From Primulina eburnea (taxonomy: Eukaryota; Streptophyta; Magnoliopsida; Lamiales; Gesneriaceae): DNA of 64,000 nucleotides. Location: positions 11,370,183-11,434,182 of the forward strand of contig NC_133117.1 in the NCBI RefSeq assembly GCF_022965805.1, written 5' to 3'. This document shows, one piece after another, positions 19,437 through 59,340 of the stretch. Below the pieces are notes generated by a model. It was not told the origin of the DNA. It ran no database searches and saw only the letters and a list, made by a program, of their open reading frames with translations. The first letter of the stretch is position 1. Each line of letters begins with the position of its first letter. Made by a program: the position numbers and the translations under genes.

Positions 19437-20275
19437 GTAATACCTGAGATTTTATCACTGTAATCAAACATTCATTACGTGACAACATTGAGATTTGAGG
19501 AACTAAAGTAAGAAGTGAGTGGAGAAGTCGAGCGCCGGTACATTACCGTACAAACCTTGTGACAGAAGGTCTGGCACCCGAGCGGTAGAAAAGGACCGCC
19601 CGAGCACTAGTGTGCAACAAGTTTAGTAATCCGACAGAATGTTCAGCGCCCGAGCGGTAGAAAATGACCGCCCGAGCGCCAATGCATCATAAGTTGAGGG
19701 CTCAGACAGAACGTTCCGCGCTCGAACGGTAATTTTTGACCGCCCGAGCGCCGCCTGAGATAGAGGAAGAATAAGCTATGTGTCCTTGCCATGCAATATA
19801 AGATGAATCATCCTTCATGCCATGCAATATAAGATGAATCACGCCTTGCATTTTTGAGACATTTGATTGTTCAAGAACCGGCTATGAGATTTTTTATCCG
19901 AACATAGTTTTTTACTCCTTTCGTCAATGGCTTCAAAAGGACGTAAGTTTTATTATGTTCTAGCATGATTCAAAATTTATGATTTGAAGGAATAATGATT
20001 TGATTGAGATTATGTGTTCTCGCGATATTGATAATCGTAAAATCGAAACCGGATCGAAGAACAGATACCGTATGGAATTTTTATGATTTTCAGAATTTAT
20101 TTGATTGAGATTATACAGATTTGGTCTCAGATTGTATTTGTTATTGATTATGAGTTATTGAGATTGGTATATACTGATTTTGTATTACCGATATTTCAAG
20201 ATTGCGATGTTATGCCGTTGAAACAGAATTAGATTGAGTTCTGATTATATCTGGTATTGAGAGTCACTTGGCAGA
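19437..20275 (+). repeat. Truncated LTR, family D (related to A and B)
   Basis: Starts TGTAATACCTGAGATTTTAT, close to the family B start TGTAATGCCCGAG. It carries a hairpin array, then AGGACGTAAGTTTT and a TTGAAACAGAATTAGATTGAG tract also seen in LTR A near 37130. It stops near 20275, where Tat-type pol begins, so the 3' half is missing. Confidence 0.7.
19573..19752. repeat. GC-rich hairpin array (3 units), LTR D
   Basis: 36-bp inverted repeats at 19573-19608, 19645-19680 and 19717-19752, exactly 72 bp apart. The best is 19645-19680: stem near GCGCCCGAGCGGT paired with ACCGCCCGAGCGC around AGAAAATG. The spacers are 36 bp and both end with a CGACAGAAT/CAGACAGAAC-like word before the next hairpin. 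A decayed half-unit (AGTCGAGCGCCGGTA) lies at 19527-19541. Confidence 0.85.
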
Positions 20276-20289
20276 ACTTTCTGTGTTAG

Positions 20290-21286
20290 TTAAGCTAGAG
20301 CCTCGGGGAAAAACTGTTTGTATCTTTGTCGACTACTGAATATGTTGTCAGTCTAGTGCTTATAAGGGAAGAAGGCTCTGATCAGAAGCCTGCTTATTAT
20401 GTTAGGCATCCTCTCAGAGGACCCGATCTCCGGTACATTGAAGTGGAAAAGATAGCCCTGCCCTTGGTTGTGATTGCCCGTAAACCGCGGCCTTATTTTC
20501 TGTCACACCAAATTATTGTGCTTACTAACTGTCCTCTTGGGAGGATTATGACTCATTCAGAAGTGTCTGGGAGGATGATAAAGTTGACGGTGAAGTTGGG
20601 AGAATATAAAATTGAGTCCCGTGTTGCCATCAAAGCGTAGGTCTTATCAGACTTATTGTCTGAAATGATTCTGCCTGATGAGGATGAAGTTTGGAGGGTA
20701 TTTTTGGATAGGACATCTAGTCTCTCTGGATGTGGAGTGGGAGTAGTGGTAATAGTCCCCTCTGGAAGAAAAGATTACATTGGCCTTAAGAATTGATTCT
20801 CGGGTTACCAACAATGATGCAGAGTATGAGGCTGTTCTGGCCGGTATGCGTGATGTCAGGGAAGCAGGAGCATCTCGTATCATCCTTTATTCTGATTCAC
20901 AACTAGTAACGCAACATATAAAGGAGCTTACGAAGCTAAGGATGAAAAGATGCTCAAGCAATTGAGACTTATTTTGGCTCAGGCAGAATCCTTCCTGGAT
21001 TGGAACGTTGAACAGATCCCCCGAGAAGAGAATAGTGAAGCAGATGCTTAGAAAAAATGGCTGCCTCTCTGACGGAAGGAAGGACTCGGGAGATATTTCT
21101 TTTCACCCGACTTGTTCTTTCTACTGAGGAAGAGTCGCTACTAATACAAAGAAATTCATGGATGACACCTCTCATCGAGTTCATGACCCAGGGCAAGCTA
21201 CCGGATGATCGAGCTCGGTACCAAAAATTCAGATAGCAGGCCTCCAGGTTTGTTCTCTTAAACAACAATTTGTACAGGAGATGATA
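20290..21286 (+). pseudogene. pol: Tat-type pol fragment: RNase H and archaeal-type RNase H
   Basis: Left part of a Tat-lineage Ty3/gypsy element. 20326-20640 reads as the end of the normal RNase H (YYVRHPLRGPDLRYIEVEK, VVIARKPRPYF). 20640-20965 is the extra RNase H typical of this lineage (VFLDRTSSLSGCGVGVVV, NNDAEYEAVLAGMRD, LYSDSQLV). It has several stops and frame changes. The start joins abruptly to LTR D near 20275, so gag, PR and RT are missing. It is interrupted at 21287 by the copia element and resumes at 28181. Confidence 0.75.
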
Positions 21287-22452
21287 TGAAGAACCTAAGG
21301 GGGGGGGGGGGGGGGGTGAATAGGTTCTTTAAGGCCCTTTAGCGTTTTTAAAACGAGTTTGCAAAAATTGCAAGCGGAAGACTTGAGGGACAATCACAAA
21401 TAAAGATGAATGCGTAAAGTAAGTGCGTAAAATAAATGCGTAGTAAAGTAAATGCGTAAAGTAAAGAGGGATAGAGATGTTTATGGAAGTTCGACGAAGA
21501 ATCGTCTACGTCTCCCCTTCTCGATGAGGATCGAGGTATCACTATGACGACTTGGCTTTAGGAGCTCCAAGCTAGCTTTTACAACCATGCCTCGATGCGT
21601 CTACTTGGCCTTGAGGGCTCCAAGGATAGCCACGAACTTTACAACCCACTCGAGAGTATTACTTTCACTCTTTTTCTACAACTCTTTTGATATTACAACT
21701 CTTTTAATCAACGCACACAAGAGATAGTAGAAAGCTTTGTAAGAGACAAGAGAGAGTGGAGTGGGATGATTGAGAATGCATCCTCAAAGGCCTATTTATA
21801 CTAGTCTTGGACGCCAAAGTTCGGATCTTCTGTTTATACTTCGGAACGTCCGATGTGATTGAAATCAATTTGCGTAATTTCTGGAATGACTTCGGATCTT
21901 CCGATCTTGACTTCGTAGGGTCCGAACATATGCTTCGGAGGGACCGATCAAACTCCGTTTCTTCCGAACAATTCTTTCAGACAGTGTATGAACAGCTTCG
22001 GAAGGTCCGAACTCCAGTTCGTACCGTCCGAATATTCCCGCGTTTCCGGAGATTTGAAATCTTCAACACTTCGTATCTTCCGATCATGTCCATCGTAGCG
22101 TCCGAAATCTACTCAATCAAATCAGTCAGATCAAATTGTCTCCGAATTGAAGTGATTTGATTGCTTGTGTTCGGAACGTCCAATCACGTCTTCGGACCGT
22201 CCGAACTCGCTACTCGCAGCTTCCGAACAGCTTCTAATTTGCTTCTGATTTGCACAATTTCGGAACGTCCGAACCAAATTTCGGATCTTCCGAACGTAAC
22301 CTTGTTCTTAATTTCCTGCATGCCTCAATATAAAACATTAGTACATTTTTAATCCAAGTTTTGGTATCATCAAAACAAAAACTTTGGGATATGTTACAGC
22401 ATTAAAAACATTAATCTCATCCTTGAGATTTGTATGCGTTTAAGGCGTAACA
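21287..22452 (-). repeat. Copia 3' LTR (left)
   Basis: In element orientation it runs TGTTACGCC to CTTAGGTTCTTCA. It contains a run of about 18 G (plus strand, from 21299), a short GTAAATGCGTA repeat and the palindromic-motif cluster at 21810-22300. The polypurine tract (plus strand TCTCCCCCTTTTTG) adjoins it at 22454. Confidence 0.92.
21810..22300. repeat. Cluster of TTCGGAnnnTCCGA palindromes in copia LTR
   Basis: About a dozen variants of TTCGGAACGTCCGA, TTCGGATCTTCCGA and CGTAGGGTCCGA in 490 bp, with irregular spacing. The same cluster is in the other LTR at 27540-28020. In element orientation it lies in the 5' half of the LTR, where promoter/enhancer sequence is expected. Confidence 0.8.
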
Positions 22453-22895
22453 ATCTCCCCCTTTTTGATGATCACAAAACTTGGTTAAAAATTGAGAAAC
22501 AATAATCAACAATCTAAATGTTATTAAATAACTCCCCCTTAATCAAATAACAAATCTAAGAGGTTGAATTAATAGCAATTTATTTAATAACCATTTAATA
22601 GCAATTTTAACCAAATAAATTCTCCCCCTTTTTGCGATAATCAAAAAGACATAAGCATAAAGAGAGACAAATAAACAAGTAAAATATCCACTAATAAATG
22701 CAAGATGAGGAACGGTGATTCCGAAGTAGCCAAGATGAGGAACACCTAAAATTTAAAATATTTAGCACATAAATGAATGTTGAGCCATAATTATGGATAA
22801 ATACAATTAATTTGTATTATCCGACATTATAATGCTCACATTAATAATACTCCCCCTCAATTTAACAAATATGTACGAGAGTATTTGACTAATGT
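22453..22895 (-). other. Copia 3' untranslated region and polypurine tract
   Basis: About 440 bp of AT-rich sequence between the pol stop and the 3' LTR, with several CTCCCCCTT words (plus strand 22453-22467, 22532, 22621, 22850). The one touching the LTR is the likely polypurine tract; the others look like duplicated tracts. There is no ORF. Confidence 0.7.
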
Positions 22896-25800
22896 TTACA
22901 ACTCAATCATGCCAAGTTTACCACGCAAACGAGTAAAAGTAGATTCATCTAGTGGTTTTGTAAAAATATCAGCAATTTGATTCTTGGTGTCAACATAGTG
23001 AAGTTCAACATCATTTTGCTCAATGTGATCACGAATAAAATGATGTCGAATGTCAATATGTTTAGTACGAGAATGTTGAACTGGATTTTTTGTTAGACAT
23101 ATGGTGCTTGTATTATCACAAAAGATTGGAATTTTTGAAAAAGTAACACCATAGTCGAGTAATTGATACTTCATCCAAAGAATTTGTGCACAACAACTAC
23201 CGGCAGCCATATACTCGGCCTCGGTCGTTGAAAGTGCAACACAGTTTTGCTTTTTAGAAAACCATGACACCAAGCAATTTCCCAAAAAGAAACAAGTACC
23301 ACTAGTGCTCTTTCTATCCACCTTATATCCTCCAAAGTCGGCATCACAGTAAGCTTTTAAATCGAAAAATGAGTTCTTAGAATACCATAATCCGAGATTT
23401 GGAGTATTGAAAGATATTTGAAAATGCGTTTTAAGGCGAATAAGTGTGATTCCTTTGGACATGATTGAAATCGTGCACACAAGCAAACACTAAACATAAT
23501 GTCAGGTCTACTAGCAGTCGCATAGAGTAGGGAGCCAATCATGCTACGAAATAACTTTTGGTCAACAGGTTTACCTCCCTCATCTTTGTCGAGTCTGACT
23601 GTCGTGCTCATAGGTGTGGATGAGGCTTTGGAAGACTCCATCCCAAACTTTTTGAGCATCTCCTTGATGTACTTCCCTTGGTTGACAAAGAAACCATCCT
23701 TGCATTGCTTGATTTGGAGACCAAGGAAGTAGTTGAGCTCGCCCATCATGCTCATCTCAAAGTGATCCTGCATAAGCTTAGAAAAATCTCTACACAAGTG
23801 TTCATTAGTAGCACCAAAAATAATATCATCTACATATATTTGTACTATCAGCAAATCATTATCTTTAGTCAAGGTAAACAAGGTAATATCAACTTTACCC
23901 CTACAAAAACCATTAGACAGCAAGAAAGTAGACAATTTCTCATACCAAGCTCTAGGAGCTTGTTTCAAACCATACAAAGCCTTATCAAGTTTATACACAT
24001 AATCAGATAAGTGCACATCTTCAAAACCAACAGGTTGCTCAACATACACTTCTTCTTTCAAATCACCATTAAGAAAAGCACTTTTAACATCCATTTGAAA
24101 CAATTTAAAGTCTCTAGAGCAAGCAAAAGCAAGTAGCATGCGAATGGATTCTAGTCTAGCAACAGGGGCATAAGTTTCATCATAATCAATTCCCTCTTCT
24201 TGACTATATCCTTTAGCTACTAGCCTAGCTTTATTTCTAGTGATTGTACCATGCTCATCTAACTTGTTCCTAAATACCCATTTAGTTCCTATAACAGGTC
24301 TATCAATGGGTCTAGGTACAAGATTCCAAACTTTATTCCTTCTAAATTCATTTAGTTCATCTTGCATAGCAATAATCCACGAATCATCAAGTAAAGCTTC
24401 TTCTATGTTCTTAGGCTCTATGTGAGAAAGAAAAGCAAGATAATTGCACATATTAGAAGAGCGAGTAGATACTCCCTTCGATGGGCTACCAATGATGAGG
24501 TCCATGGGATGATCCTTGTGCGTAGTCCACTCCTTCGGAAGAGGTGCGTCCTCTTGATCTTTAGGAACATCATCTAGGCTTGTGGACTCCAATTCTTCGC
24601 CAAGGATATCTATATCATCATCATCAGAAACAACAGGTCTAGGCAAGCAAGGGTTAGTTTCATCAAATATGACATGAATAGATTCTTCAACTAGTAAAGT
24701 GCGTTTATTAAAGACTCTATATGCTTTGCTAGAAGTAGAGTAACCAAGAAAGATACCTTTGTCCGATTTAGCATCGAACTTACCCAGGTTGTCCTTACCA
24801 TTGTTGTGGATGAAGCATTTTGATCCAAAAGCGCGGAAGTAAGAAATGTTAGGCTTTCTCCCTCTCCATAGTCCGTATGGAGTTTTCTTGAGAATTGGCC
24901 TTATTGATACGCGATTGATGATGTAACAAGCAGAACTCATCGCTTCAGCCCAAAAATATTTTGGTAGAGAATGCTCACATAGCATGGTCCTTGCAATCTC
25001 TACTAGGGTCCTATTCTTCCTCTCAACGACACCGTTTTGTTGAGGAGTTCTAGGACAAGAAAAGTTGTGACCAATGCATTTGCTTTGACAAAAAATTGAA
25101 AAATTTTCATTTTGAAATTCCGTTCCGTGGTCACTACGGATTTGTTTGATCAACAGATTTTTCTCATTTTCAACCTTTTTGACAAAAATTTTGAAATGAT
25201 CAAAGGCATCACTTTTGTGGGCTAAAAACAATGTCCAAGTAAAACGTGAAAAATCATCCACAATGACAAAAGCATAGGATTTACCTCCTAGACTAGTTGT
25301 CCTCGAGGGACCACATAAATCTAGGTGAAGTAATTCAAGGGGCATAGAAGTGGATACAAAAGTTTTATTTTTGAAAGATTCCTTTGTGTGTTTACCAAGT
25401 TGACAAGCATCACAAAAAGAATCTAATTTTAAATTCAGCTTTGGCATTCCGGAAACTAGGTCAAGTTTTAAAAGTTTTTCTATGGTGCTCATCCCAACAT
25501 GACCAAGTCGTCTATGCCAAAGAATGTTGTCATCAACATTTAATGTTACAAGGCTTTTTATTTTTGAAAAAGATGAAATCTTTAAATCGACCTTGTAAAC
25601 ATTTTCACTTCTATAACCTTTGAAACTAATGGATTTGTCAGTAGTGAGTGATACAGTGCAATCGTGTGGTGTGAATTTGACTTCATAACCCCTATCGCAC
25701 AATTGACTAATGCTTAGGAGGTTATGTTTAAGTCCTTTCACAAGAAGTACATCATCAATAATAGTAGAGTTAGATATACCTATTGAGCCGATGCCTTCTA

Positions 25801-26956
25801 TGATCCCTTTGCTGTTGTCTCCAAAGGTCACCGATCCCTTTTCTTTTGGTCGAATGGATTGTAGCAGCTTCTTTTCTCCCGTCATGTGTCGAGAGCATCC
25901 ACTGTCAAGATACCAAGTGCTCGATGACTTGTCTCCCCTTTGTCCCTCGTCGTCATCCGAGTCGGTCAGATGATCTTCCTTCGCCATGAAGCATAGGGTA
26001 GACTCCTCTTCGTTGTCGCTGTCGCTCCACGTGGCTAGAAGGGCCTTCTTCTTGTCTTTGCCGGCCTTCTTCTTGGAGGGACACTCGTTTGCATAGTGAC
26101 CCTTTTGTTGACAGTTGTAGCAGGTCACTTCCTTCTCAATCTTTTTGTCCTTCTTGTTGAAGTTGGAACTCCGCATGAATCTTTTGAACTTTCTAGTGAG
26201 GAGTGCCATTTCTTCATCGTCGCTATCTTCAAGTTGACTGGTCAAGGCGATCCCTTTCGCCTTTACTTTGTCGTCATCTTTCTTTGTCTCCTTCCGGGTA
26301 GATACTTCAAGTTCATGGGTCTTTAGGGTCCCATGAAGTTGATCAAGGTCGTAGGATGCCGCATCTCCCTTGTTGGATTCAATGATAGCCGTGCGCTTTG
26401 CATCCCATTCCGCCGGTAATGCTCGAAGGGCTCTCCTCCACACTTGTTTAGTTGGGTAGTTCTCACCAAGTTGGGCAAGCTCATTGATGATTTGGGTGAG
26501 CCGCCGGAACATGGTGTCGATATCCTCCTTGGGTTCCATCTCAAAGGTCTCGTACTTGAGTTGGAGAAGGTCTATCTTCGTTTCTTTGACTTGATTGGTT
26601 CCCTCGTGGCAAATCTCCAATTTGTCCCAAATCTCTTTGGCGGAGGTGCAAGCCGAGATTCGGTTGTATTCATTCATATCTAGAGAACAATGAAGAATAT
26701 TCATAGCTTTAGCATTTTGAGAGATAAGTTTCATATCGTCCTTGGTGAAGTCATCCATTCCCTTAGGAATTTCCTTATCATCCACCGTTTGCATGGGGAT
26801 ATAGGGACCTTTCACCGTTATTTTCCAAAGGTCGTAATCGACGGATTGGATGTATAGAGATATTCTATTCTTCCAATATCCGTAATTAGTACCATTGAAA
26901 AGAGGGGGACGATTTGTGGATTGTCCTTGGGCATACTCGCTTGCTAGATTGGCCAT
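22896..26956 (-). pseudogene. gag-pol: Copia gag-pol polyprotein, one frameshift
   Basis: A 1199-codon frame from MANLASEY plus a 196-codon frame carrying the C-terminus; the frames switch near 23400. Gag occupies about 1-270, with the zinc knuckle [14 protein letters not shown] at 279-292. Protease YLDSG has catalytic Asp 351. Integrase: zinc finger H481, H485, C515, C518; DDE residues D546, D609, E645 all present. RT runs about 870-1120 with YVDD at 1041-1044. RNase H is in the second frame: YCDADFGG, TTEAEYMA and FCDNTSTICL, ending ADIFTKPLDE. All catalytic residues I can see are kept, so the single frameshift in the RT-RH linker is the only obvious lesion. A sequencing or assembly error there would make it intact. 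Confidence 0.9.
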
Positions 26957-26977
26957 TTAAAAGATTTTGAAAAATCT

Positions 26978-26990
26978 GGCTCTGATACCA
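26978..26990 (-). other. Copia primer-binding site
   Basis: Minus strand TGGTATCAGAGCC, initiator tRNA-Met type, two bases inside the right LTR. Confidence 0.92.
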
Positions 26991-26992
26991 CT

Positions 26993-28175
26993 TGAAGAAC
27001 CTAAGGGGGGGGGGGGGGGGGGGTGAATAGGTTCTTTAAGGCCCTTTAGCGTTTTTAAAACGAGTTTGCAAAAATTGCAAGCGGAAGACTTGAGGGACAA
27101 TCACAAATAAAGATGAATGCGTAAAGTAAGTGCATAAAATAAATGCGTAGTAAAGTAAATGCGTAGTAAAGTAAATGCGTAAAGTAAAGAGGGATAGAGA
27201 TGTTTATGGAAGTTCAACGAAGAATCGTCTACGTCTCCCCTTCTCGATGAGGATCGAGGTATCACTATGACGACTTGGCTTTAGGAGCTCCAAGCTAGCT
27301 TTTACAACCACGCCTCGATGCGTCTACTTGGCCTTGAGGGCTCCAAGGATAGCCACGAACTTTACAACCCACTCGAGAGTATTACTTTCACTCTTTTTCT
27401 ACAACTCTTTTGATATTACAACTCTTTTAATCAACGCACACAAGAGATAGTAGAAAGCTTTGTAAGAGACAAGAGAGAGTGGAGTGGGATGATTGAGAAT
27501 GCATCCTCAAAGGCCTATTTATACTAGTCTTGGACGCCAAGGTTCGGATCTTCTGTTTATACTTCGGAACGTCCGATGTGATTGAAATCAATTTGCGTAA
27601 TTTCTGGAATGACTTCGGATCTTCCGATCTTGACTTCGTAGGGTCCGAACATATGCTTCGGAGGGACCGATCAAACTCCGTTTCTTCCGAACAATTCTTT
27701 CTGACAGTGTATGAACAGCTTCGGAAGGTCCGAACTCCAGTTCGTACCGTCCGAACATTCCCGCGTTTCCGGAGATTTGAAATCTTCAACACTTCGTATC
27801 TTCCGATCATGTCCATCGTAGCGTCCGAAATCTACTCAATCAAATCAGTCAGATCAAATTGTCTCCGAATTGAAGTGATTTGATTGCTTGTGTTCGGAAC
27901 GTCCGATCACGTCTTCGGACCGTCCGAACTCGCTACTCGCAGCTTCCGAACAGCTTCTAATTTGCTTCTGATTTGCACAATTTCGGAACGTCCGAACCAA
28001 ATTTCGGATCTTCCGAACGTAACCTTGTTCTTAATTTCCTGCATGCCTCAATATAAAACATTAGTACATTTTTAATCCAAGTTTTGGTATCATCAAAACA
28101 AAAACTTTGGGATATGTTACAGCATTAAAAACATTAATCTCATCCTTGAGATTTGTATGCGTTTAAGGTGTAACA
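26993..28175 (-). repeat. Copia 5' LTR (right)
   Basis: 1183 bp, paired with 21287-22452. It has one extra 17-bp GTAAATGCGTAGTAAA-type unit near 27155 and a slightly different G run. It contains the same palindrome cluster. Confidence 0.92.
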
Positions 28176-28180
28176 TGATA

Positions 28181-29264: not shown

Positions 29265-29334
29265 TGGCCACTAGCTTCCGCTTGGTTCGTCCCCGAACCA
29301 CACCGTACTAAGAGCGGTCGGCTCTGATACCAAC

Positions 29335-30110: not shown

Positions 30111-30208
30111 AATTATTATTCGAAAACATAATGAATTTATTTTCTTCTTAGAAAAAGCATTGAATATTATATCTAAACCCAAGTAATCAAAAACCGGACA
30201 ATCTATAA
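30111..30208. other. AT-rich linker after Tat pol
   Basis: No gene or repeat seen; short 3' untranslated stretch leading into tandem repeats. Confidence 0.5.
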
Positions 30209-30705
30209 AGTCCCGGGACCAGCTCCTCGGCCCAGGGCTCCGTACCCTGCTTATTTCATAAGCCCAGGGCTCCGTATCTTGGCTCAGTGTTCCGCACCTC
30301 GACCATTCCAAGTCCCGGGACCAGCTCCTCGACCCAGGGCTCCGGACCCTAGTTATTTTATAAGAGAAGGGCTCCGTACCCTAGCTCAGGGCTCCGCAAC
30401 TCGACCATTCCAAGTTCCGAGACCAGCTCCCCGGCCCAGGGCTCCGTACCCTGGCTCGGGGCTCCGCACCTCATCCATTCCTAGTCCCGAGACCAGCTCC
30501 TGGCCCAGGCTCCGTACCCTGGTTATTTAATAAGCCAAGGGTTCGTACCTTGGCTCGGGGATCTGCACCTCGACCATTCCAAGTCCAAGGACCAGCTCCC
30601 CAGCCCAGGGCTCCATACCCTGGCTCGGGGCTCTGCACTTCGACCATTCCAGGTCTCGGGACCAGCTCCCCGGCCCAGGGCTCCGTACCCTAGTTACGTA
30701 TCAAG
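30209..30705. repeat. 70-100-bp GC-rich tandem repeats (6 units), Tat 3' region
   Basis: Units begin near 30209, 30311, 30412, 30483, 30582 and 30652 with AGTCCCGGGACCAGCTCC-like sequence. They contain CAGGGCTCCGTACCCTG, itself a small palindrome (CAGGG/CCCTG), and CTCCGCACCTCGACCATTCC. Long units have an extra TTATTTxATAAGCC segment; short ones lack it. Confidence 0.85.
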
Positions 30706-36387: not shown

Positions 36388-36590
36388 GCGCATATGCGCG
36401 GCATAGATGCGCGCATATGCGCGACGGAGGAAGAGGACCTCGCGCGAGCCCTTGAAAGCAAATTCCAGAGGACCTAGCGCATATGCGCAGAAATGAGTCG
36501 CGCATATGCACGAGCTGCCGAGAAGCTTATCCACGAGACCAGTAGGTCTCGCGCATATGCACCGATATTGGTCGCGCATATGCGCGAGAC
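36388..36590. repeat. CGCGCATATGCGCG palindrome array, 5' LTR A
   Basis: Paired palindromes forming three larger hairpins. The second expected hairpin is reduced to CTCGCGCGAG at 36439-36448, against 40 bp in the 3' LTR (42042-42081). Confidence 0.85.
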
Positions 36591-41861: not shown

Positions 41862-42269
41862 TGTAAGGCCCGAGAATTTTATCCTGTTAATCTGAAATGA
41901 TTTGGGGATAACTGATATGATTATAGACGGAAGGGATCGGACCGGGAAAGACGAGAAAATGCATGAAAATGTGCGAGAAACAGTAGTCTCGCGCATATGC
42001 GCGTCATAGATGCGCGCATATGCGCGACGGAGGCAAAGGACCTCGCGCATATGCGCGAAGTGAGTCGCGCATATGCGCGAGCCCTTGAAAGCAAATTCCA
42101 GAGGACCTCGCGCATATACGCGGAAATGGGTCGCACATATGCGCGAGCTGCCGAGAAGCTTATCCACGAGACCAGTAGGTCTCGCGCATATGAGCCGATA
42201 TTGGTCGCGCATATGCCCGAGACGTGCAGGAGGCACATTGAGACACTTGTCTTCTAGCATGTGCGAGTA

Positions 42270-42314: not shown

Positions 42315-42450
42315 GAATTCTTGAGAAATTCAGGAAAGAAGAATCGAGAAAGGGCCGAGGAAAGTTACGAAAAATCCTTACGCCTTTTGTGAGAAATCCG
42401 CCCGTCCGATTTTGAATCCGACTTCGGTATTGAGTTCCTATTGACGTAGG
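41862..42450 (+). repeat. 3' LTR of element A, first 589 bp
   Basis: Matches 36259-36855; truncated by element E directly after GACGTAGG. It has four palindromic hairpins (41988-42030, 42042-42081, 42107-42147, 42181-42222), one more than the 5' LTR. Confidence 0.9.
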
Positions 42451-43936
42451 TGATCGAGCAAAACTTGCACTGTGAATTCCCCAATAAAATATGATTTTGT
42501 ATGCTCAAAAATTAATCGCAAGTGCACGATGTCAAGTAATAATATAGTGTATGTGAATACGAGTATCGTTCCGCTGAAGACTGTATTTAACAATTATTAT
42601 TTTAGTTATTAAAACTTTAGCGACGAAAGGTGATTGGTTGTGTTATGACTAATAAAATGCAAGAAAATTAAATAAACAAGTTCAAAGATTAAATGATAAA
42701 ATATGATTGCTAAATCGATTGATTAAATTTCAAATGATAAAAGAATTTGTTGGGAATTCTGGTTCACCTACCCCTTATGAATTAATTAATTCGTTCGATT
42801 GTGTTCTACGCTTCCGACAGGATTTCCTATTCAATTAAACACACTCTCTCGAGCTATGCCAAACTAATTCACTCAATGAAGTAATTAAATGTCTTTAATT
42901 ATTTATCAAGAATGAATCGCATTTCGATTGATGAAATCCCCTAGTTTTCGACCCTAAGGACTATGACTATCGGCACGTATCCAATTTCATATATCTATGC
43001 AAATTGTAGATCCGCGAATTATACTACTAGTTCTTATCACAAGTTATTCTCTCGAACTCACTCGCGATATAAAACCGTTGTTAAAGTTAGCTACGCTCTA
43101 ACAACACAATAAAACAATAGTATAACCAAGAACAAATCACAAATCGAAATATGAATTAACTAGATCAAAGTTTTGGGGTAGGATCCCCTTTAATCCCAAC
43201 AAATATGAAAAGTTAGCTACTAGAATTCATAATTAAAATCAGCAAAACAATGTTTAAATAAGAGAAAATAAACTTGAGATACTAGATGTAGCGAAGTCTG
43301 CGAAGAACGATGCCCGGAAACCGTCGAATCTTCAATCCAAGTGCCAAAGCTCTCCAAAACTCCTTGTCCTCCTCCAATAATGTCTGAATCTCTCCCAAAA
43401 ACGTCTAACCCCCCTTTCCATTCCAACCATTCTCCCCACTAAGGTAAGAAATCGAGCATGAAATCTTGCCAAAAATAGATGGCGCTCGGGCGGTAGAAAA
43501 TTACCGCTCGAGCGCCACACCTTATGTGAATCTCCTTGGGAAGTGCAGCATTCGCGCTCGGGCGGTAGAAAACTACCGCTCGAGCGCCGACCTTTCTGTC
43601 GAAGTTCTTGGGGTGAGTGGCTCTCGCGCTCGGGCGGTAGAAAACTACCGCTCGAGCGCCAACCTTTCTGTTGCCTTGGTCACCTTTCGCGCCCGGGCGG
43701 TAGAAAATTACCGCTCGGGCGCCACTCATTCTGTCTGTTGCCTTCTCATTTGTACACTTTGCTCCATCTTTGGTTTTCCGGTCACTTTTACCTGCAAATT
43801 TGTCACAACCCAGTGAGACATGATAGAATGCAGATGTTTGCTCAAAAATGAACAACATGTAACTAAAATGCATGCATGCACAATGCAAACACAACTAAAA
43901 CTAATGCAATAAAATACGTAAAAATGACACATATCA
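42451..43936 (-). repeat. 3' LTR of element E
   Basis: Element orientation: TGATATGTGTC to GCTCGATCA, 1486 bp, next to a TATGAGGGGGT polypurine tract (plus 43937-43948). The end carries the conserved Athila tail, AAGTGCACGATGTCAAGTAA on the plus strand. It contains the hairpin array at 43481-43723. Confidence 0.85.
43481..43723. repeat. GC-rich hairpin array (4 units), LTR E
   Basis: Hairpins 43481-43516, 43553-43588, 43625-43660 and 43688-43723. The arms GGCGCTCGGGCGGTA and TACCGCTCGAGCGCC enclose GAAAAT-like loops, with one G-T or C-A type mismatch allowed. Steps are 72, 72 and 63 bp. Both strands stay open through the array, giving repeated GARAVVFYRPSA or RARAVENYRSSA peptides, which I regard as a by-product of the palindrome. 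Confidence 0.9.
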
Positions 43937-45232: not shown

Positions 45233-46659
45233 TCAAGCGTCATCCTCATCATACTCCGGCGGTGGCGCTCCTGCGGCTGCCCCCTGCTGAGAGTAATCAT
45301 ACTGGAACTGGAATGGGGGAGGAGGTAGCGGAGTCGGTGGAATGGTCCACGGGTCAACACCCCCGTGCACAAGCAAAGATAGCATCATAGAGTCAATGTG
45401 AGATAGGTGGTCCGTGACATACGAGTTAAACTGACTCTGATGTGCTTGGAAGGCGAGATTTTCATCCATTTTGTCATTCTGCGTTCGCCTGCGGCGTGGA
45501 ATGGCAGTGCTAGATCCACTGGCGTCCTCCTCCCGAGGGGAAAATGCACTGATTCGCTTAGCTCGTTTCCGCTGGAGGTCTTCGACACAAATAGGCTTCA
45601 TGGGCTGCAACCACTCCTCATCATCGCGAAATACGACTCCCGCTCTAGCGCACAACTCGGAGATAATGGTGGGGAAGAACTGGCCCACATGACTGTCGTG
45701 GGCACTCAGTGTGATTTGTGAATTGATGAGTGTGCCCACGTTGATGGCGTATCCCTCGGTCAAAGCATAAAGCAGCACCGCCCGCTCTTTCTGGACCTCG
45801 CTCTTATGCGAGACCGGCATCATTCTCCGAGCCACAAATAAATACCAAAGGGCCACTTCGGTTTTCAAATACTTCTCGTCAAAACAACTCGGCGAGCCGC
45901 CCAATGGTTTCCATAGTGCGCCGGATGGCACAATGTGGCGAGAATCGTATCATAATTCGGGTTAGCAACTAATGTCTGGAAGTGGGAGTCGTCAACCTCC
46001 GCTGTCCCTAACAGTGCATTGATCGTTACCGAGTCATACGGCACATGTTTACCCCTAACAAACACCAACCCATTTCGCCCCTCGGCTGCATTGGCATAAA
46101 ATTCGCGAACCACAGAGACTACCGCCACCTTAGGTTTCTCACCGTATTGTTCCCAACCACGCCTTTGCAATTCAACAATAATATCCAAGTATCGGTCCTC
46201 TAACTGTCGCCGGACTCCCCTCTCGGCTATTGGGTTGCGATGAATTTTCGCATGCTCGTATCGAACCCTAGCCTCCATACTAACAAAACGGTGTCTATCA
46301 AATGAGGATGAAGAGCTAGAGGAGCCGGGGTTACCTTTTTGCTTTTTGGGAGCCATTGTGTTGGACAAGTTGGATCTTTGAGTTGGAGAATGGTGTTCTT
46401 GCTTCCCAAGGGAGATTGTGCCTTGTTGCCGGAGACTAGAGTGGATATTGAAAGCCTGCACCACAAAATTGAAAGAACAAAATGAGAGTAGTGAGGGATT
46501 TTGTGAGAGGGGAATTTGGGGATTAGGGATTTTGAGAGGGGAAATTCGTGCAGAATGAAGAAAGGGGAAGGGGATCTGCGCTTTAAAAGTCTTCGCGCTC
46601 GAGCGGTAAAATATTACCGCTCGAGCGCCGAGTCCTCGGGAAAAAATTATTAGCGGCAA
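45233..46659 (-). pseudogene. Element E extra ORF (putative plant transposon protein), one frameshift
   Basis: Lies after pol on the same strand, the position of the env-like/extra ORF of Athila elements. Two frames overlap near 45900. The first (45865-46659) has MAPKKQKGN near 46356, then RRGWEQYGEKPKVAVV, VVREFYANAAEGRNGLVFVR and the start of a LG/HPxA segment. The second (45233-45931) has LKTEVALWYLFVARRMMP and RAVLLYALTEGYAINVGTLI, then a charged C-terminus with a Pro-rich run ending DEDDA. This fits the 'putative plant transposon protein' domain found in such ORFs. There is no signal peptide or membrane segment, so it is not a classical envelope. The start is likely MAPKK; codons upstream run through a hairpin array. 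Confidence 0.65.
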
Positions 46660-46763
46660 ATGCTCGCGCTCGAGCGGTAAAATATTACCGCCCGAGCGCC
46701 AAGCTCTCTAGACTTCTGCATTAGCTTCGCGCTCGAGCGGTAATAAACTACCGCCCGAGCGCC
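46594..46763. repeat. GC-rich hairpin array (3 units), inside element E
   Basis: Hairpins 46594-46629, 46665-46700 and 46728-46763, steps 71 and 63 bp, located between pol and the extra ORF rather than in an LTR. The first has perfect arms GCGCTCGAGCGGTA and TACCGCTCGAGCGC with loop AAATAT. Confidence 0.9.
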
Positions 46764-51731: not shown

Positions 51732-53334
51732 TTTTTCTTTCTTATCATTGTTTCAGTCTACCATGGTTATTAGCTTTCATATTTTTAGTCTGCATTTGTG
51801 TTTGCATTCTTAGTGTCTGTTTCGTTTTGTGCAATGAGGGCATTGCACAACTCGAGTATGAGGGGGGGTAGATTGTTATGTTTGATTAGTTATTCGTTGC
51901 ATTTATTTTGTCTAGTGTCGTTTATGGTGAGAAGACATAATTTATGCGCCAATGATGAGGTCAGATTGTTAGTATACAATAGTATTGATCGGGTCATTTC
52001 ATGAACGGTACTCTTGATTGTTAAAGCATGAATGTTGGCTCAAGTTTGAACTTTTTAAGCACATATGTGTGGGGACTAGAAGTTTGTAGGAATAATGGTG
52101 AAATTTGAAAGTTTTGTGTGGTTAACTTGAAAGGCACCATTTATGAGTTGATTTAGCATGTAAACCCGTGAAAATAAGTCGCTAATTGAGACCTCGAATG
52201 AGAAAATTTATTTTGCCTTGAACTGTACATTTACCTCCTTTCCAATGCACTGAATTAAAATGTCATACTCCTAACCAGCTGTAATCCAAAAGATTATATT
52301 CTTAGCCTAGGGAGTACATGTGTGAAAATTGTGCATTAAAAAAAAAAAAAAGAGAAAAAGAGAAGGAAGAAGGAGATGTAAGGTGAGGGGGAGCCGAAAT
52401 AAAAGGAATGAAATTCTATTCCTAGGCTAAAAGTTGGAGATGTAAGGAGACGCGGAAAGTCAGACGAAACGTCTTGACGATTGCACAATGAAATGATCGG
52501 TGTACTCCCAATTTTTAGCCACTCGAGCTTATTTTCCTTCTTTTCGACACCCTTATCTACACTTAAAAAGTTGAATAAAGTTCAATTAATGGCTAGTGAT
52601 AAATGGACACGGGGATGCATGCTAGTGAGACTTGTATTGAAGTGTTAAATTGAGTGACTCGCATGATTGGATAATTGATCTATTTGAAATACGGATGACT
52701 AGACCCATCATAACACACACACACGTTCAAATTAGTGTCAAGATTTATGTGTAGATGAGAATGAGTATTCGTTTGAGATTTGACTTGATTATGATTTGTA
52801 CGGGAGAAAGATCACTGAGGCATGAGCATAAAATTTGTTAACTCACCATTGATATTTAATTGTGTTAGTTATTTCGTGTTTGAGTAATTTTGTGGTTGTT
52901 GAGTTTGTTTAGTATCTCGTGCTTTAACCTATTTTACTTGAGGGCAAGCAAAAGGTCAGTATGAGGGTGTTGATATGTGTCATTTTTACGTATTTTATTG
53001 CATTAGTTTTAGTTGTGTTTGCATTGTGCATGCATGCATTTTAGTTACATGTTGTTCATTTTTGAGCAAACATCTGCATTCTATCATATCTCACTGGGTT
53101 GTAACGAATTTGCAGGTAAAAGTGACCGGAAAACCAAAGATGGAGCAAAGTGTACAAATGAGAAGGCAACAGACAGAATGAGTGGCGCCCGAGCGGTAAT
53201 TTTCTACCGCCCGGGCGCGAAAGGTGACCAGGGCAACAGAAAGGTTGGCGCTCGAGCGGTAGTTTTCTACCGCCCGAGCGCGAGAGCCACTCACCCCAAG
53301 AACTTTGACAGAAAGGTCGGCGCTCGAGCGGTAG
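51732..53334 (+). repeat. Inverted partial copy of element E 3' end (E')
   Basis: Reverse complement of 43573-45174 with few differences, so the two form 1.6-kb arms around a 6.6-kb centre. It comprises the non-coding 3' region, a GTATGAGGGTGT polypurine-like tract and the first 364 bp of an LTR (from TGATATGTGTC at 52971). It ends inside a hairpin unit, fused to LTR B. Confidence 0.9.
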
Positions 53335-53497
53335 AAAAGGACCGCCCGAGCGCCAATGCATCGCAAATTGATCTTTGGACAGAACGTAGGGCGCCCGAGC
53401 GGTAGAAATTGACCGCTCGAGCGCCAGGGAATTGTAAGATAAGTAACCGGGCAGAAGGTTCGGCGCCCGGGCGGTAATTCTTGACCGCCCGAGCGCC
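53184..53497. repeat. GC-rich hairpin array (5 units) across the E'/B fusion
   Basis: Hairpins 53184-53219, 53247-53282, 53319-53354, 53390-53425 and 53462-53497; steps 63, 72, 71 and 72 bp. The first two belong to E', the last two to LTR B, and the third is the fusion point. Spacing is undisturbed at the fusion. Confidence 0.92.
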
Positions 53498-55265
53498 ACC
53501 TGGAAATCATGAAGTGCGCCACTTGCTTTCATGCATGTCATGGATGTATATATATATATATATACACATGCAAATCCTTCAGAATATTTAGAAGGAAATC
53601 GATAAGTTGGGGAAAGGCTTCGTTCTGGAGTTTTGGAAATTAAGTACGAGAAATCCGTCAGTCAGATTTTGAATCTGACTTCGGTACCGTGTTTCTAGCA
53701 ACGACAGCTACAACTGGACGTAAGTTTTGTTACGTTTAGACAAGATTTGACTTTATGATAGTGTTAGAATTAAATATGAATCAGATATGATGTTTCTACT
53801 ACCGTAGACATTGTTGAATTAAAGTCAGATTAAAGAACAGATTGTTTCTGTAATTGTTATGATTTTCGAAGGATATTGACTGAGATTTTGATATCAGAAT
53901 TGTGTATTACTGATTGTGAACATACCGATACTGAGATTATGAGTTCTGGTATTATATATGTGGTGTTCAGATTGACGAGGTTATTCAGACTTTATTGTTA
54001 TGCCGTCGAAACATCAGTAGATTGATATTGATCAGATTCAGTATTGATTGAGATTGATCAGACTCAGTAATTATTCAGATTATATTGTGATATCGATGAT
54101 ATGAATTGAATTGTGTCTTGTTCAGATATTGATCAGATTATATACTGATTTGAGTATTGATCAGAACAGATTGTGTATTGAGTTATTCACTGACACAGCG
54201 TATTCGATATTGTCATTTCAGATTTGATATGGACAGAGTTGAATACCAGACTTCGTCTTCGTCAGACAGGGACGACAAAGGTATAATTCATGTGATATTC
54301 GGGAAGATACAACTCAAATAAGATCCTATTTGAGTTTCCCAATAAAATCACATACTAGATTATTGTTATATTCTGATATGAATATTCTTTGTTTATATGC
54401 TGATATGCTATGCTTTGTTTACAGATTGCTATGCATTGCATTTAAGATAGGAGAGTCGTTGACAGCTATTGTCAAATATCTAGATGTTCGGTGTATCCCA
54501 GCTTAGGAGCAGCTCTGACTCCTATTGCAGCCGTCGATACAGCTCTGACCGAAGTCTAGGAATAAGACGTACAGTCACCCCGAGTGGGAGGGTAGGTGAC
54601 AGCCATTGACGTCTTATTCACACCGGGATCCCTAGAGTTATAGTTGAGTCGAGTCTAGACATGATTTGACTAGAACTGCATGTGTTTATGAATGTGGTTT
54701 CATAGACTATGAAACACATGCTTATTGCTTTCATTTATGATAGCATGTTTATATGATTTGATCTAAATTGCATGTTAGCTGAATCGAGTTGCATGCTTAT
54801 TTCGAACAGATTTCATCGATTATGCAATCTATTATTTTGAGTATGTTCATGATAGCTTGTTTTATGATTTAGATTGTTTATATACATGCTTACCATGTTT
54901 TATACTGGGATTTATTCTCACCGGAGTTATCCGGCTGTTGTCTTGTTTTGTATGTGTGCATGACAACAGGTGGGGCTGGATCGGGGTCAAGAAGATGATA
55001 AGAGAAGACGAGTTAGCGTGGTGATTTCGGACTTACTGTAGATTTGGTTTACTACTTGAACTTAGTAACCAAACCTTAGACTTAGATCGTACATTATTGT
55101 ACTGTTATACTGAAATGTATTTTATACTGAGATGTATATTATTTAGCTTCCATTACCTTCCGCATTTACATTTTAAAAAGAAAAAAATTTTTGACCCTGT
55201 TTATCAGAACTGATAATTAAATCCCAACGATGATTAAGAAGATGATTAGCGTCCGGGTCCCCACA
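53317..55265 (+). repeat. LTR B copy 1, 5' end replaced by E'
   Basis: From the fused hairpin to GGTCCCCACA at 55265; matches 59160-61138. The first ~125 bp of a normal LTR B are missing. The (TA)n run is short (53545-53563). It keeps the segment CTCACCGGAGTTATCCGG ... GGGGCTGGATC (54916-54990) shared with LTR A. Confidence 0.9.
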
Positions 55266-55270
55266 ACAGG

Positions 55271-55282
55271 TGGTATCAGAGC
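55271..55282 (+). other. Primer-binding site, family B copy 1
   Basis: TGGTATCAGAGC, five bases after the LTR end. Confidence 0.92.
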
Positions 55283-55607
55283 GATAGATCCTTTAGATTG
55301 AGATAGTCAGAGATGATAGATCCTTTAGACTGAGATAGATGGAGATAAGATAGAATGAGCGGGGTAGATTGAATTTTCTTTCCTTGCATGTGATTGCTAG
55401 CATGAGAATTATTTTAATGTTGACTTACATTGTGTGTGCTAGCATGATTTATTGCTTTCCCTATTACATGTTGTTTGTTATCTGATTTGACTACAACATG
55501 TAGTCATCAAGACTGAATCAGAACCGAGTCTGAATCAGAGGTATATGATCAGAGGAGGGCTGAGACAGATTATATAGATTGGGTATTAATTTGTTTGATA
55601 TTCAGAT

Positions 55608-56507
55608 ATACCTCCACGGCGAATTCCAGAAAGGGGTAGTACTTCGTCCGAACAGATAGATGCATCAGAAACTCAGATGGAAGTAAAGTTGGCAGAATTG
55701 CAGTTATTACAGCCGCCGATTCTGAGTGGTACCGAGACATCTGAAGAGTGTCAGAACTGGGTTGATGACATAGAAATACTATTTGATTTACTCGATTGCA
55801 CAGATGAACAGAAAGTTAAATTGGTATTTCACCAGTTACGAGAGGCTGCCAGAAGTTGGTGGATTACAATCAAAGGAGTCTTAGCACAACGTGGTATTGT
55901 GATCACGTGGGAAGTCTTCAAGACTGAATTCTATCAAAGATTTTTCTCATTCTCGTACCGAGAGGACAAGAAAGCGGAGTTTGAGAATTTGAGCCAAGGT
56001 CAATTGAATATTGATGAATATATTGCTAAATTCTCTACTCTACTGCATTTTGCTCCTCATTTAGCTGGAAATGATGAAGCCATAGTAAATCAGTTCATCA
56101 GAGGGTTGAATTCAGAGGTAGTTGCATTTATGAATCTGCAGCGACCTTACCATTTTGCTGATATCTTGAGTAGAGCGAAGAGAGCTGAAGCGAGTCTGAT
56201 TAGACAGCTAGGGAGGTTGTGTGTGAAGCAACCCCAGACACAGCAATCCCCTCTCAGATTTGATCGCGGCAGTACGAGTGGGAAGCAAGATTTGCTGAAA
56301 ACTCGAAAGAAGCCATTCAAGAAGTTGGGGAGTAGTTCCTCTAGCTCAAGTGGTTCCAGTCCAAGTCATATTGGAGTCTATTGCAGGAATTGCGGAGGGA
56401 GACATTTCTCAGAGCAATGCCAAGGAGTGCTTGGTAGATGCAATATTTGTAAACAGCCGGGACACTTTGCTAGAGTCTGTCCCCAGAAAGGTTCCCGAAG
56501 ATTTTAG
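55608..56507 (+). CDS. gag: Family B gag, open frame
   Basis: Gag of a chromovirus-type element: gag domain (EECQNWVDDIEILFDLLDC, SWWITIKGVL, FKTEFYQRFF, SQGQLNIDEYIAKFSTLL), a basic linker, and two zinc knuckles, CRNCGGRHFSEQC and CNICKQPGHFARVC. The 276-codon frame opens at the ATG at 55677. The family start (MPPRR in element A) corresponds to ATACCTCCACGG at 55608, in frame and without a stop before 55677. The original start codon is therefore changed to ATA and the first 23 codons are probably not used. Everything downstream is uninterrupted. Expression is unknown. Confidence 0.75.
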   Translation: MPPRRIPERGSTSSEQIDASETQMEVKLAELQLLQPPILSGTETSEECQNWVDDIEILFDLLDCTDEQKVKLVFHQLREAARSWWITIKGVLAQRGIVITWEVFKTEFYQRFFSFSYREDKKAEFENLSQGQLNIDEYIAKFSTLLHFAPHLAGNDEAIVNQFIRGLNSEVVAFMNLQRPYHFADILSRAKRAEASLIRQLGRLCVKQPQTQQSPLRFDRGSTSGKQDLLKTRKKPFKKLGSSSSSSSGSSPSHIGVYCRNCGGRHFSEQCQGVLGRCNICKQPGHFARVCPQKGSRRF

Positions 56508-59021
56508 GGAACAGAATCGAGAAACAGACCCAGAATACACTACAGGTATTATTCTTTTATGATTCTATTGCATATGTATTGATATATACTAATGCATTTG
56601 TTAAGAATATCTTTGACTAAGTTGCATGGAGATATGCTGTATCTGTTGGGTTTGTATGTACTGTAGTATTGATGTCCTTGCTTGTTGAGGAAATGTTGAT
56701 ATCAGAGACTTCTGTATATATTGTATACTACAGTAAGATGAGAATGAAATAGAAATAGATTATGATGTACTTGTGTTTTCTGATTTGAACGCATTATTGA
56801 TATGTATATGCTGAACAAGTACAGACATATTGTAGAATTGTTCCAGAAATGGTAAGAGTCAGACCAGAGATGACTGATCAGTGGAGATACCACGATAAGG
56901 ATTCTAGATTTAGAATTCCTTTGATATCTGTAGTGTATATGACTCGATTAATACAGAAAGGAACAGAATGTATCCTTATGTATTCAGTAAACTTACTGAA
57001 ATCGAGTCTAGCATTGGCAGATTTGCCAATAATGCATGAGTTGGCTGGTATCCTTATGTATTCAGAATTGAATTCAGCTCAGATACTGATTGTTATTTTA
57101 GAATTCAACACAGAATAACGTTGAATGTATAGAATGATACAGAATGAAGTGAAAGATCAGTAGAAGAGTACCGACCAGGAGTTACATCTGATTTAGTGTT
57201 TCTCTTTGGCGTGTTCCAGTATCTTCAGAGATGTTCTGATGATTCTATGCTTGTTATATCTATGAGATTTTGATATAATTGCAGCATTTGATTGATTGAA
57301 TTGAATATCTGAAGATTGTGTTAGATATTCTGAGAACTATAATGATTGTATACAGAAATTATTCAGATAAAAATCCTGCTTGACACAGATTGTATTCAGA
57401 ATGTGCGTTATCTGAAGCTAGTATACAGATTGATTCTAATACAGTTGAAATTGCGATCAGTGACTGATAAGATATCGATATGAGAAAGAACAGGAAGTTC
57501 AGAAATGTATGTTGTCGGATTTGACAGATTATTTTATTCAACTGTTGCTCTATATCTGCTGAGTATTGGTATTGTTCTGAATCAGTATTTGAGTTATCTT
57601 ATATTGTTTTGAATCCGTATATGCTACAGATTATTGTGAACCAGCGAGAGTATATACAGTTTCAACCGAATCAGAGCTGAATTCGAGAGTTACAGTAATT
57701 CAGGAATGTGATCAGAATGTTCAGAACTAGATTTTTATAATCAGAGCCGAATAACGGATATGTGATTTTGTGTTTTGTATGAGACTGATTATCTTATGAT
57801 GTCAGATGTGTCAGAATTGGACAACAAAGCTTGATATCGATAATCAGAGCCGAATACCAGGTAGGTATATTTTCTTTTATTTATGTTATTAACTGATTTG
57901 TTTATGTCAGTAGTTCGGATCTGAAATCACAGATAGGGTCAGAAATGCACCGTAGTGGATTCAGTTTCAGTTTGATGATTGAGAATGTATGATATTCGAA
58001 AAGATAGTTGTGATATAGACATATTAAATCAGTTATAGCAGAATTTATGCTGAAATGTTGGCAGAAATTGTACTGATATGTCTGAATTGCTAACAGAAAA
58101 GACAGAAAGATAGAAATCAGAAGATTTATTACAGAATTGTATAGTTCTAAATAGAAATGAGAGTACATTTCTATTGCTTTCGTAATGAAATTACCGCCAT
58201 TTTCTCCAGATCATGATAGAATATGATTGTGATTGATAGATTATTCAATCTATATTCTATTAGTTTGTACAAGATCATGTACAAACATGACCAAATGACA
58301 CAGATCGGTGTCAGAGAAGTGGTCAGAAAGATCAGAATGCCATAGTAGATTATATCAGATTGTGATTTGATTGATTTTGTATGTGTGACAAAGTATATCA
58401 CGAGCTCTCTCTTAAATGGTTTTACAGATTGACAGACCGTCAGACTGTATTAGCTAGATATTAGAAGATTTTGGTACAGCTTTAGTGCTAGATGTTAGCA
58501 CTAGTTGATATGACTTATTATCACTGCATGACAATACCTATCAGCCTACCAGATTGGTAATGAGATAGTTTCAGTCAGGACAGTATACAGTGAATACTAC
58601 AGATTTCTAATTCTTTTGAAGAAATTCGAAGGAAGATGAAGATAGTTCAGAAAGAACAGATGTCATAAACCAACATCGGATGATGATGATTGGTATTTGA
58701 GGTCGAGGATTGAATATGTCCTAGATTGAGAGCAACAGATTTAATGATAGTTGGCTGTATTGAATCATTATAGACTATGGAGTGGTTTATACGGATATTG
58801 TATAGCCCACATGGCAGGATTGATTTTGTCAGAATTAAATTGAGAAGTATTATGATAATATACTTCATGAATTCTTATTCAGATTTGAAATCAGAGGTTG
58901 ATACAAGAAAGAGATTTCAGAATGGATTCAGTAAGATGAGAGTTTGATTTAAACTCAGTTATACATTTCTTCTGATATAGTTAAATTGATTGTTTGTGAG
59001 TTCGAGGACGAATTCAGATCT
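56508..59021 (+). pseudogene. pol: Family B pol remnants, copy 1
   Basis: Only parts are readable. 56800-57116 gives MVRVRPEMTDQWRYHDKDS and LIQKGTECILMYSVNLL, the region between protease and RT, matching element A at 39945-40140. RT and RNase H are not seen. 57900-58600 has a decayed integrase-like stretch, identified only by position relative to element A. The rest is AT-rich with many stops. Confidence 0.6.
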
Positions 59022-59161
59022 AAGAGGGGGAGAAATGTAATGCCCGAGATTTAATTATTGTAATCAGACGTTGATTAATTGACATAATTGTGGTTATAAG
59101 AATTCAAATGGCGAGGCCGGGCGTCGTTGCATGGTTAGCCAAGAATTTGGACAGACCCTTC

Positions 59162-59340
59162 GGCGCTCGAGCGGTAGAAAAGGACCGCCCGAGCGCCAAT
59201 GCATCGCAAATTGATCTTTGGACAGAACGTGTGGCGCCCGAGCGGTAGAAATTGACCGCTCGAGCGCCAGGGAATTGTAAAATAAGTAACCGGGCAGAAG
59301 GTTCGGCGCCCGGGTGGTAATTCTTGACCACCCGAGCGCC
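59162..59340. repeat. GC-rich hairpin array (3 units), LTR B copy 2
   Basis: Hairpins 59162-59197, 59233-59268 and 59305-59340; steps 71 and 72 bp. They correspond to units 3-5 of 53184-53497. The last differs from 53462-53497 at two bases that pair with each other (C/G to T/A). Confidence 0.92.

Follow-up and report, generated by a model that had tools for sequence, protein, structure and literature searches.

In a 64-kb window of the Primulina eburnea genome (the whole stretch of DNA analysed here, contig NC_133117.1), five arrays of a 36-bp GC-rich inverted repeat, the cassette, lie in long terminal repeat (LTR) retrotransposons, and the motif crosses one lineage gap, that between the Athila-type element E and the Ty3 lineage of elements B and D. 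We regard these cassettes as probable cis-regulatory units acting at the level of DNA: enhancer arrays of the U3 (unique 3′) region of the LTR, used again upstream of an extra open reading frame (ORF3) of element E, and shared between lineages by exchange or by convergence. Our material comprised the window, one plant protein and the literature.

Results

Scoring every 36-mer of the window against the cassette consensus and its reverse complement identified exactly 18 copies in five arrays, each matching at 29–34 of 36 positions; scores of 22–28 are absent, and the next best 36-mer scores 21. Within arrays the copies follow one another at steps of 71, 72 or 63 bp (Table 1), which confirms the number, places and steps given by the original prediction, where the cassettes had been described as hairpins shared by unrelated retrotransposons. 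The word GCTCGAGCGGTA, allowing up to two mismatches, matches 43 times in the window against 1.2 expected, and a single one of these matches, at 45638, falls beyond the arrays. The 18 copies have a GC content of 0.69 and 0.185 CpG per base (window: 0.39 and 0.029), while the five arrays, three of which are shorter than 200 bp, have a GC content of 0.56–0.61 and a CpG observed/expected ratio of 1.29–1.82 (window: 0.76) by direct calculation.

Each hairpin is built of two inverted copies of a 10-bp palindromic site, CGCYCGRGCG, one per arm, whose centres are 22 bp apart in all 18 copies, the next pair following after 41 or 49–50 bp. The earlier proposal that a base-paired hairpin is the conserved feature is not supported by the stem, since two-sided changes at three pairs show, as judged from the table of the 18 copies, no excess of the matched combinations that compensatory change would leave. 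Read in sense, pair 6–31 is TA in 10 copies, CA in 6 and CG in 2; pair 9–28 is AC in 11, AT in 3, GC in 2 and GT in 2; and pair 11–26 is CG in 17 and TA in one, the doubly changed copy at 59305. The two variable pairs (6–31 and 9–28) accordingly read A·C in 17 of 36 cells. Across pairs 2–14 the LTR arrays hold 175 Watson–Crick, 20 A·C and no G·U cells (195 in sense), and the interior array of E holds 37 Watson–Crick and 2 G·U cells (39 in sense). Folding energies of single hairpins range from about −11 to −31 kcal/mol, the sense strand being the poorer folder in the LTR arrays. Because A·C cells are frequent and matched changes unassociated, these columns are better explained by conservation of two DNA sites at a fixed distance than by pairing of a stem; antisense RNA reads the A·C cells as G·U, so that an antisense hairpin could still form.

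In sense, the LTR cassettes consist with few exceptions of a word like GACAGAAnGTTC, a left arm ending in CGCYCGRGCGGTA, a mostly A/T loop and a right arm beginning with KACCGCYCGRGCG. In every pairing of D, B and E, the 12 bases preceding the hairpins, which contain the ACAGAA word, are more alike than in any of 2000 shuffles; the interior array has no ACAGAA, and its 12 bases are weakly like those of the other arrays (3, 2 and 0 of 2000 shuffles). In the 15 bases before the word, D resembles both B (10/2000) and E (4/2000), and B and E are not alike (206/2000). Arms within arrays are 80–100% identical and the spacer at −27 to −13 only 31–40%: conservation sits in the palindromic sites, not in the spacers.

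Table 1. Arrays, junction and ORF3 in the window (positions of the window; strand of the feature)
Feature	Position	Strand	Cassette starts	Description
Array D	19573..19752	+	19573, 19645, 19717	3 cassettes, U3 of LTR D; LTR starts at 19436, TGTAATACC
Copia 3′ LTR array	21820..22294	-		15 TTCGGAnnnTCCGAA sites (up to 3 mismatches), then in sense TATAAATA; the other LTR has their counterparts at 27543-28017
Array C, 5′ LTR	36388..36585	+		6 GCGCATATGCGC palindromes in 3 pairs; a 3-mismatch site at 36401 left out
Array C, 3′ LTR	41991..42218	+		8 GCGCATATGCGC palindromes (up to 1 mismatch) in 4 pairs, centres 22-23 bp apart
Array E	43481..43723	-	43481, 43553, 43625, 43688	4 cassettes, U3 of E 3′ LTR (42451-43936); first hairpin 213 bp inside the LTR
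ORF3 of E	45233..46356	-		PF20167 "putative plant transposon protein"; begins with MAPKK at 46356; lies in two frames in the window
Interior array of E	46594..46763	-	46594, 46665, 46728	3 cassettes in the stretch separating the pol end from ORF3; orientation as in the E LTR array
E′	52971..53318	+	53184, 53247	Beginning of U3 in an LTR of E type; TG at 52971, preceded by a purine tract (by eye)
Chimeric hairpin	53319..53354	+	53319	E-type before the shared tract; B-type in loop and right arm
B-type cassettes 2 and 3, first B copy	53390..53497	+	53390, 53462	
Array B	59162..59340	+	59162, 59233, 59305	3 cassettes, U3 of LTR B; LTR starts at 59036

Element E lies on the minus strand and carries a protease-bearing gag frame, RT-RNaseH (RVT_1, RT_RNaseH), integrase (H2C2, rve) and then ORF3; it is a Ty3 element, because RT-RNaseH precedes integrase, and its strand places the array at 43481–43723 in the U3 of its 3′ LTR. 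This LTR begins at 43936 (TGATATGTG, with a purine tract before it seen by eye), ends at 42451 (...GATCA) and is inserted in the 3′ LTR of element C, whose homology ends at 42450. The gag-pol-ORF3 order and the 68–71% DNA identity between pieces of E and a window element at 12855–17689 suggest that E is Athila-type; the latter element has the primer-binding site (PBS) TGGCGCCGTTGCCGGGGA, a motif that we take to indicate an Athila-type element. The start of ORF3 is backed by P0001, a 374-aa Primulina eburnea protein (65% over 146 aa). The interior array, which bears out the earlier claim that one array lies outside an LTR, is upstream of the ORF3 ATG by 238 bp and is followed, after 5 bp, by TTTTAAAG.

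The LTRs of D and B are homologous (19436–19757 versus 59036–59345, 69%, by blastn), and because their alignment extends outside the array, the two share the cassette by descent. Between E and B/D, no blastn match (≥80 bp, E ≤ 1e-8) reaches more than about 25 bp beyond the arrays. The claim that ordinary descent of one LTR is insufficient therefore holds for E, a separate lineage that matches B/D only around the arrays, and not for D and B, and the presence of a real cassette in an Athila-type and in another Ty3 lineage is upheld. B has gag matches to PF03732 and PF19259 and occurs in two tandem copies (53296–58127 and 59139–64000) that are 97.8% identical, with a period of about 5.87 kb; no long pol frame was found in B or C. 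We presume from the LTR ends, the PBS TGGTATCAGAGC and gag that B, C and D are chromoviruses, and both names, Athila and chromovirus, are used here as presumptive labels for the window elements.

In this sequence the two lineages meet at E′/B, where the predicted fusion can be specified: a 3′ end of E type stands in + orientation, and its U3 passes into that of B inside the hairpin at 53319–53354. The left arm of this chimeric hairpin lies in a tract of 18 bp that E and B have in common (TCGGCGCTCGAGCGGTAG), and the breakpoint falls within those 18 identical bases. The segment 51728–53426 aligns to E at 96.7% over 1705 positions, its last part being B-type, and from 51728 onwards the E-type 3′ end is joined back to front to a truncated E gag. 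This second join, between truncated E gag and inverted E-type 3′ end, lies within 51650–51800, and the 5′ LTR and the PBS of E are both absent.

Arrays of other palindromes occupy similar places in two further elements. The LTR of C is related to that of B (75–76% over shared parts) and is without the CTCGAG cassette; a GCGCATATGCGC array takes the place that the cassettes have in the U3 of B (129 versus 126 bp inside the LTR), with 31–66 bp between successive pairs, and GCGCATATGCGC with up to two mismatches is found nowhere else in the window. Resemblance of the word before the C pairs to ACAGAA was judged by eye only and carries no weight here. The copia element at 21287–28175 has Ty1 domains and order and is one that we take to be Sirevirus-like from its gag and the junction polypurine tract (PPT)-AT-TG; it has 15 TTCGGAnnnTCCGAA sites in the U3 of each LTR, with 9 of 14 gaps at 20–22 bp and the others at 43–78 bp, a loose pattern that also matches 24 times in the remaining window. 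When sites were placed at random (15-bp minimum, 20000 draws; C 5′ LTR left out), the observed number of 20–23 bp gaps was reached in 0 of 20000 draws for copia, with p values of 0.010 for the C 3′ LTR, 0.015 for D, 0.007 for E, 0.020 for the interior array and 0.015 for B. Comparison across families carries the greater weight, since the sites of any single array may have arisen from one another. For the 17 longer gaps, which are non-independent, Rayleigh tests gave signs of helical phasing that we treat as weak (p about 0.01 for a period of 10.5 bp and 0.002 for one of 10.0 bp).

The LTR arrays lie in U3, as they start 126 (B), 129 (C, both LTRs), 137 (D), 158 (copia) and 213 bp (E) inside their LTRs. 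An unbiased scan for recurring GC-rich palindromes yielded, after merging, eight clusters in the window, and 20 control sequences from a first-order Markov model gave none; the eight comprise six U3 arrays (two in copia, two in C, one each in E and E′/B), the interior array and an unplaced cluster at 30233–30606, arrays D and B falling below the threshold. Downstream of the arrays, a TATA-like word stands out in copia alone (8 of 500 shuffles reach its score), and the TA runs in B and C are reached by 38–74 of 500 shuffles. The unplaced cluster belongs to a tandem repeat with GGGCTCCGTACCC words (30208–30696), perhaps the U3 of a minus-strand element with a PBS at 29321. Element A has, at 2915–3014 and 11080–11179 in an LTR-like repeat, three CGGTCGCCAGTGACCG-like palindromes at 36-bp spacing, with CGGT..ACCG present.

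Discussion

The position of the arrays in U3 and before ORF3, their CpG richness, the strict spacing of their sites and the freedom of their spacers lead us to propose a DNA-binding factor that would occupy closely spaced sites as part of an LTR enhancer. We infer protein binding, enhancer activity, an internal promoter and a direction of exchange from this organization, as follows. A dimeric DNA-binding factor of the host plant would bind the CpG-rich palindromic sites, which lie about two helical turns apart, and their repetition in U3 upstream of the core promoter would make an enhancer array, working much like the repeated-motif boxes of Sireviruses. The second array of E, just upstream of ORF3, would most likely be an internal promoter or enhancer for that frame. 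The lineages of E and B/D would have come to share the motif either through exchange of U3 pieces, by recombination or template switching between arrays, or through convergence on the same factor; the E′/B junction, at which an E-type U3 start stands on a B element, may be one such exchange and would illustrate one way in which cassettes can move. The enhancer reading is supported by the way in which sites of three unlike sequences recur at comparably short distances (22 bp in B, D and E, 22–23 bp in C, and 20–22 bp in the majority of copia gaps), and by a published analogue in which the motif has the same two places, in the LTR upstream of the TATA box and upstream of ENV (PMC2829016). Of the roles originally proposed for the cassettes, the enhancer is thus the one we favour, and hairpin RNA pairing found no support in covariation.

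The analogue deserves a closer comparison. In Bousios et al. (2010, PMC2829016), repeated-motif (RM) boxes are palindromic motifs of 13 Sireviruses, 12 of them with a CGG-CCG signature, that lie in the upper half of the LTR, starting 200–400 bp after the PPT/LTR junction and with a TATA box shortly downstream, number at least eight per element and form a CpG island. Copies recur upstream of ENV where ENV is present, which the authors see as support for an internal ENV promoter, and RM boxes are called Sirevirus-specific after a comparison of Ty1/copia elements. The window arrays are likewise palindromic, CpG-rich and repeated, early in the LTR and again upstream of an extra ORF; the signature, as CGGT(6-9)ACCG, is present in 17 of 18 hairpins, the eighteenth (59305) having both letters changed. 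In E the three interior copies are all found after pol and before ORF3, a putative env-like frame with PF20167. Beside the RM figure of at least eight copies, E has four hairpins in the 3′ LTR and three in the interior (14 single sites), and B and D have three hairpins (six sites) per LTR; by its start E fits the RM range, and B, D and C begin nearer the LTR start. The Inga motif, given there as AGCGGTA-S-TACCGCT, resembles the inner stem of the window hairpin, and its half-site AGCGGTA is found in 15 of 18 hairpins and 16 times in the whole window; the Osr9 and HOPIE motifs resemble the copia sites by eye.

Unlike RM boxes as that study describes them, the window arrays have Ty3 hosts (E and the B/D/C lineage) besides copia, their arms are extended to CGCYCGRGCG, their sites are 22 bp apart and one motif serves two lineages, with C lacking the CGG-CCG signature. 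The cassettes would therefore work like RM boxes and yet are no Sirevirus RM by definition, because E has Ty3 order and B has PF03732 and PF19259 gag. The layout itself is already published for Sireviruses (PMC2829016); what look new are the occurrence of such arrays in Ty3 elements, the sharing of one motif, the short distance between sites and the E/B chimeric LTR broken inside a cassette. Judged by titles, abstract starts and passages of PMC2829016, PMC5311732, PMC10760457, PMC11963269 and PMC6911290, with subscription papers mostly beyond reach, the literature gave no description that we recognised of such arrays in Athila or chromoviruses.

Two further systems invite comparison. An accessory gene of Grande elements is reported to be transcribed under a separate promoter (Gomez-Orte et al. 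2013, cited in PMC11963269), and E similarly has an extra ORF in its 3′ internal region with a putative promoter of its own; element and ORF are different, and the promoter of E is proposed from the array alone. Complex elements that share an LTR have been attributed to template switching or recombination (PMC1950507), and E′ and B are likewise joined through one LTR; at E′/B the two joined families have LTRs that match only around the cassettes, and the breakpoint lies inside one. As to the binder, the GT-2 (trihelix) box is given as GCGGTAATTAA in PMC4267404; counting either strand, CGGTAAT, part of that box, occurs in 8 of 18 hairpins and CGGTAATT in 5 of 18. A trihelix factor is a candidate binder, as a lead only.

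Several observations weigh against the enhancer and internal-promoter proposals. The TATA-like words of D (225 of 500 shuffles), the E LTR (468 of 500) and the region after the interior array (382 of 500) are no better than shuffles, and for this reason the internal promoter of ORF3 is argued from the presence and location of the array; for the ORFs of Athila, splicing has been predicted as the other route (PMC2829016). The interior array is without ACAGAA, the Inga half-site is on both arms in 1 of 18 hairpins only, and the CpG observed/expected ratio exceeds 1 in certain stretches of LTR beyond the arrays as well (1.22 both ahead of array B and behind array E). Copia sites form groups of 2–4 and not strict pairs, gaps within one array are possibly copies of each other, and the spacing is not universal, because the palindromes of element A are 36 bp apart.

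The same arrays can be read in other ways. U3, which the genomic RNA carries in its 3′ part, would be in that RNA together with the interior array, and both could provide stem-loops for packaging, export or 3′-end formation, which the folding energies of single hairpins and the exclusively standard or G·U pairs of the interior array (37 and 2 of 39) would suit; yet the LTR arrays have A·C in 20 of 195 sense cells and G·U in none, their sense strand folds more poorly, covariation shows no excess, and C and copia repeat a similar spacing with other sequences, and we hold an RNA element to be very unlikely. Templates or targets of 21–24-nt RNAs acting through silencing, a role compatible with an enhancer, would gain from the A·C cells of the LTR arrays, which would become G·U in antisense RNA, but stems of about 15 bp are short, and the status of a target leaves unexplained why the elements retain the sites. 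There is precedent in maize, where, according to PMC5311732 and PMC10760457, palindrome-rich cis-regions of Sirevirus LTRs are small-RNA hotspots, and the window arrays, known from sequence alone, likewise place palindromes in the regulatory part of the LTR; as an account of the arrays we nevertheless find this decidedly unlikely.

Spread with no regulatory role, in which units multiply by tandem duplication and conversion within U3 and pass between families by recombination at palindromes, would fit the plain relatedness of arms within an array and the E′/B junction inside a cassette. The divergence of the spacers beside arms that stay 80–100% identical would, however, demand constraint or very local conversion, and the different palindromes of C and copia keep a similar spacing and place, so that purely selfish duplication is in our view quite unlikely. 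Finally, an assembly error could have produced the E′/B chimera, whose junction falls in the tract common to both families and near the second odd join at about 51728; this would account for the chimera alone and not for the cassettes in D, E, the interior of E and B, and we consider it unlikely.

Building on the cis-regulatory reading, we put forward, tentatively and as a possibility that we rate below an even chance, a promoter grammar common to plant LTR retrotransposons of unrelated superfamilies (the Ty1 copia element, the Ty3 B/C/D lineage and the Ty3 Athila-type element). In it, CpG-rich palindromes would stand two helical turns from each other, as pairs or small groups repeated through U3; the palindrome could be replaced as a set (CGCYCGRGCG versus GCGCATATGCGC in the related B and C) or carried between families when U3 regions recombine within a cassette, and the array could be reused as an internal promoter for an extra ORF. 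If this is true, palindrome arrays would be a general control device of plant LTR retrotransposons, tradeable between families, instead of a Sirevirus peculiarity; they would tie a motif, in a testable way, to a host DNA-binding factor, to targeting by small RNAs and to the bursts of particular families, and would supply a physical candidate for the internal promoter suspected for the extra (env-like) ORF.

Database searches and additional observations

At its gathering thresholds Rfam gave no match at the cassette arrays, and scans with the exact hairpin pattern found none in viral contigs and none in prokaryote genomes, neither collection being expected to contain plant DNA. In a text search of the literature with the arm sequences, the titles listed (40 of 95 papers) were unrelated, the matches probably being primers with XhoI sites. 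The frames that read through the arrays had no protein match at E ≤ 1, either for 43439–43891 (-; 3021 candidates) or for 53056–53538 (-; 187 candidates), in a database that holds some plant proteins, since the ORF3 frame of E matched one Primulina eburnea protein. A CRISPR-like (clustered regularly interspaced short palindromic repeats) reading of repeat and spacer was set aside because the repeats sit in plant LTRs, with no search made for associated genes.

The sole Rfam match of the window is snoR71 (16973–17081, +; 43.6 bits, gathering threshold 40), on the strand opposite to the frame 16648–17616 of an Athila-like element; it may be a chance match or a small nucleolar RNA copy. A frame resembling LOG, assigned from its first copy (PF03641, Lysine_decarbox), occurs at 1071–1796 and 8091–8546 (-), within a direct repeat (1226–2672 and 8102–9549, 99.2%) that is seemingly part of the LTRs of element A, and is perhaps a host gene fragment captured in an LTR.

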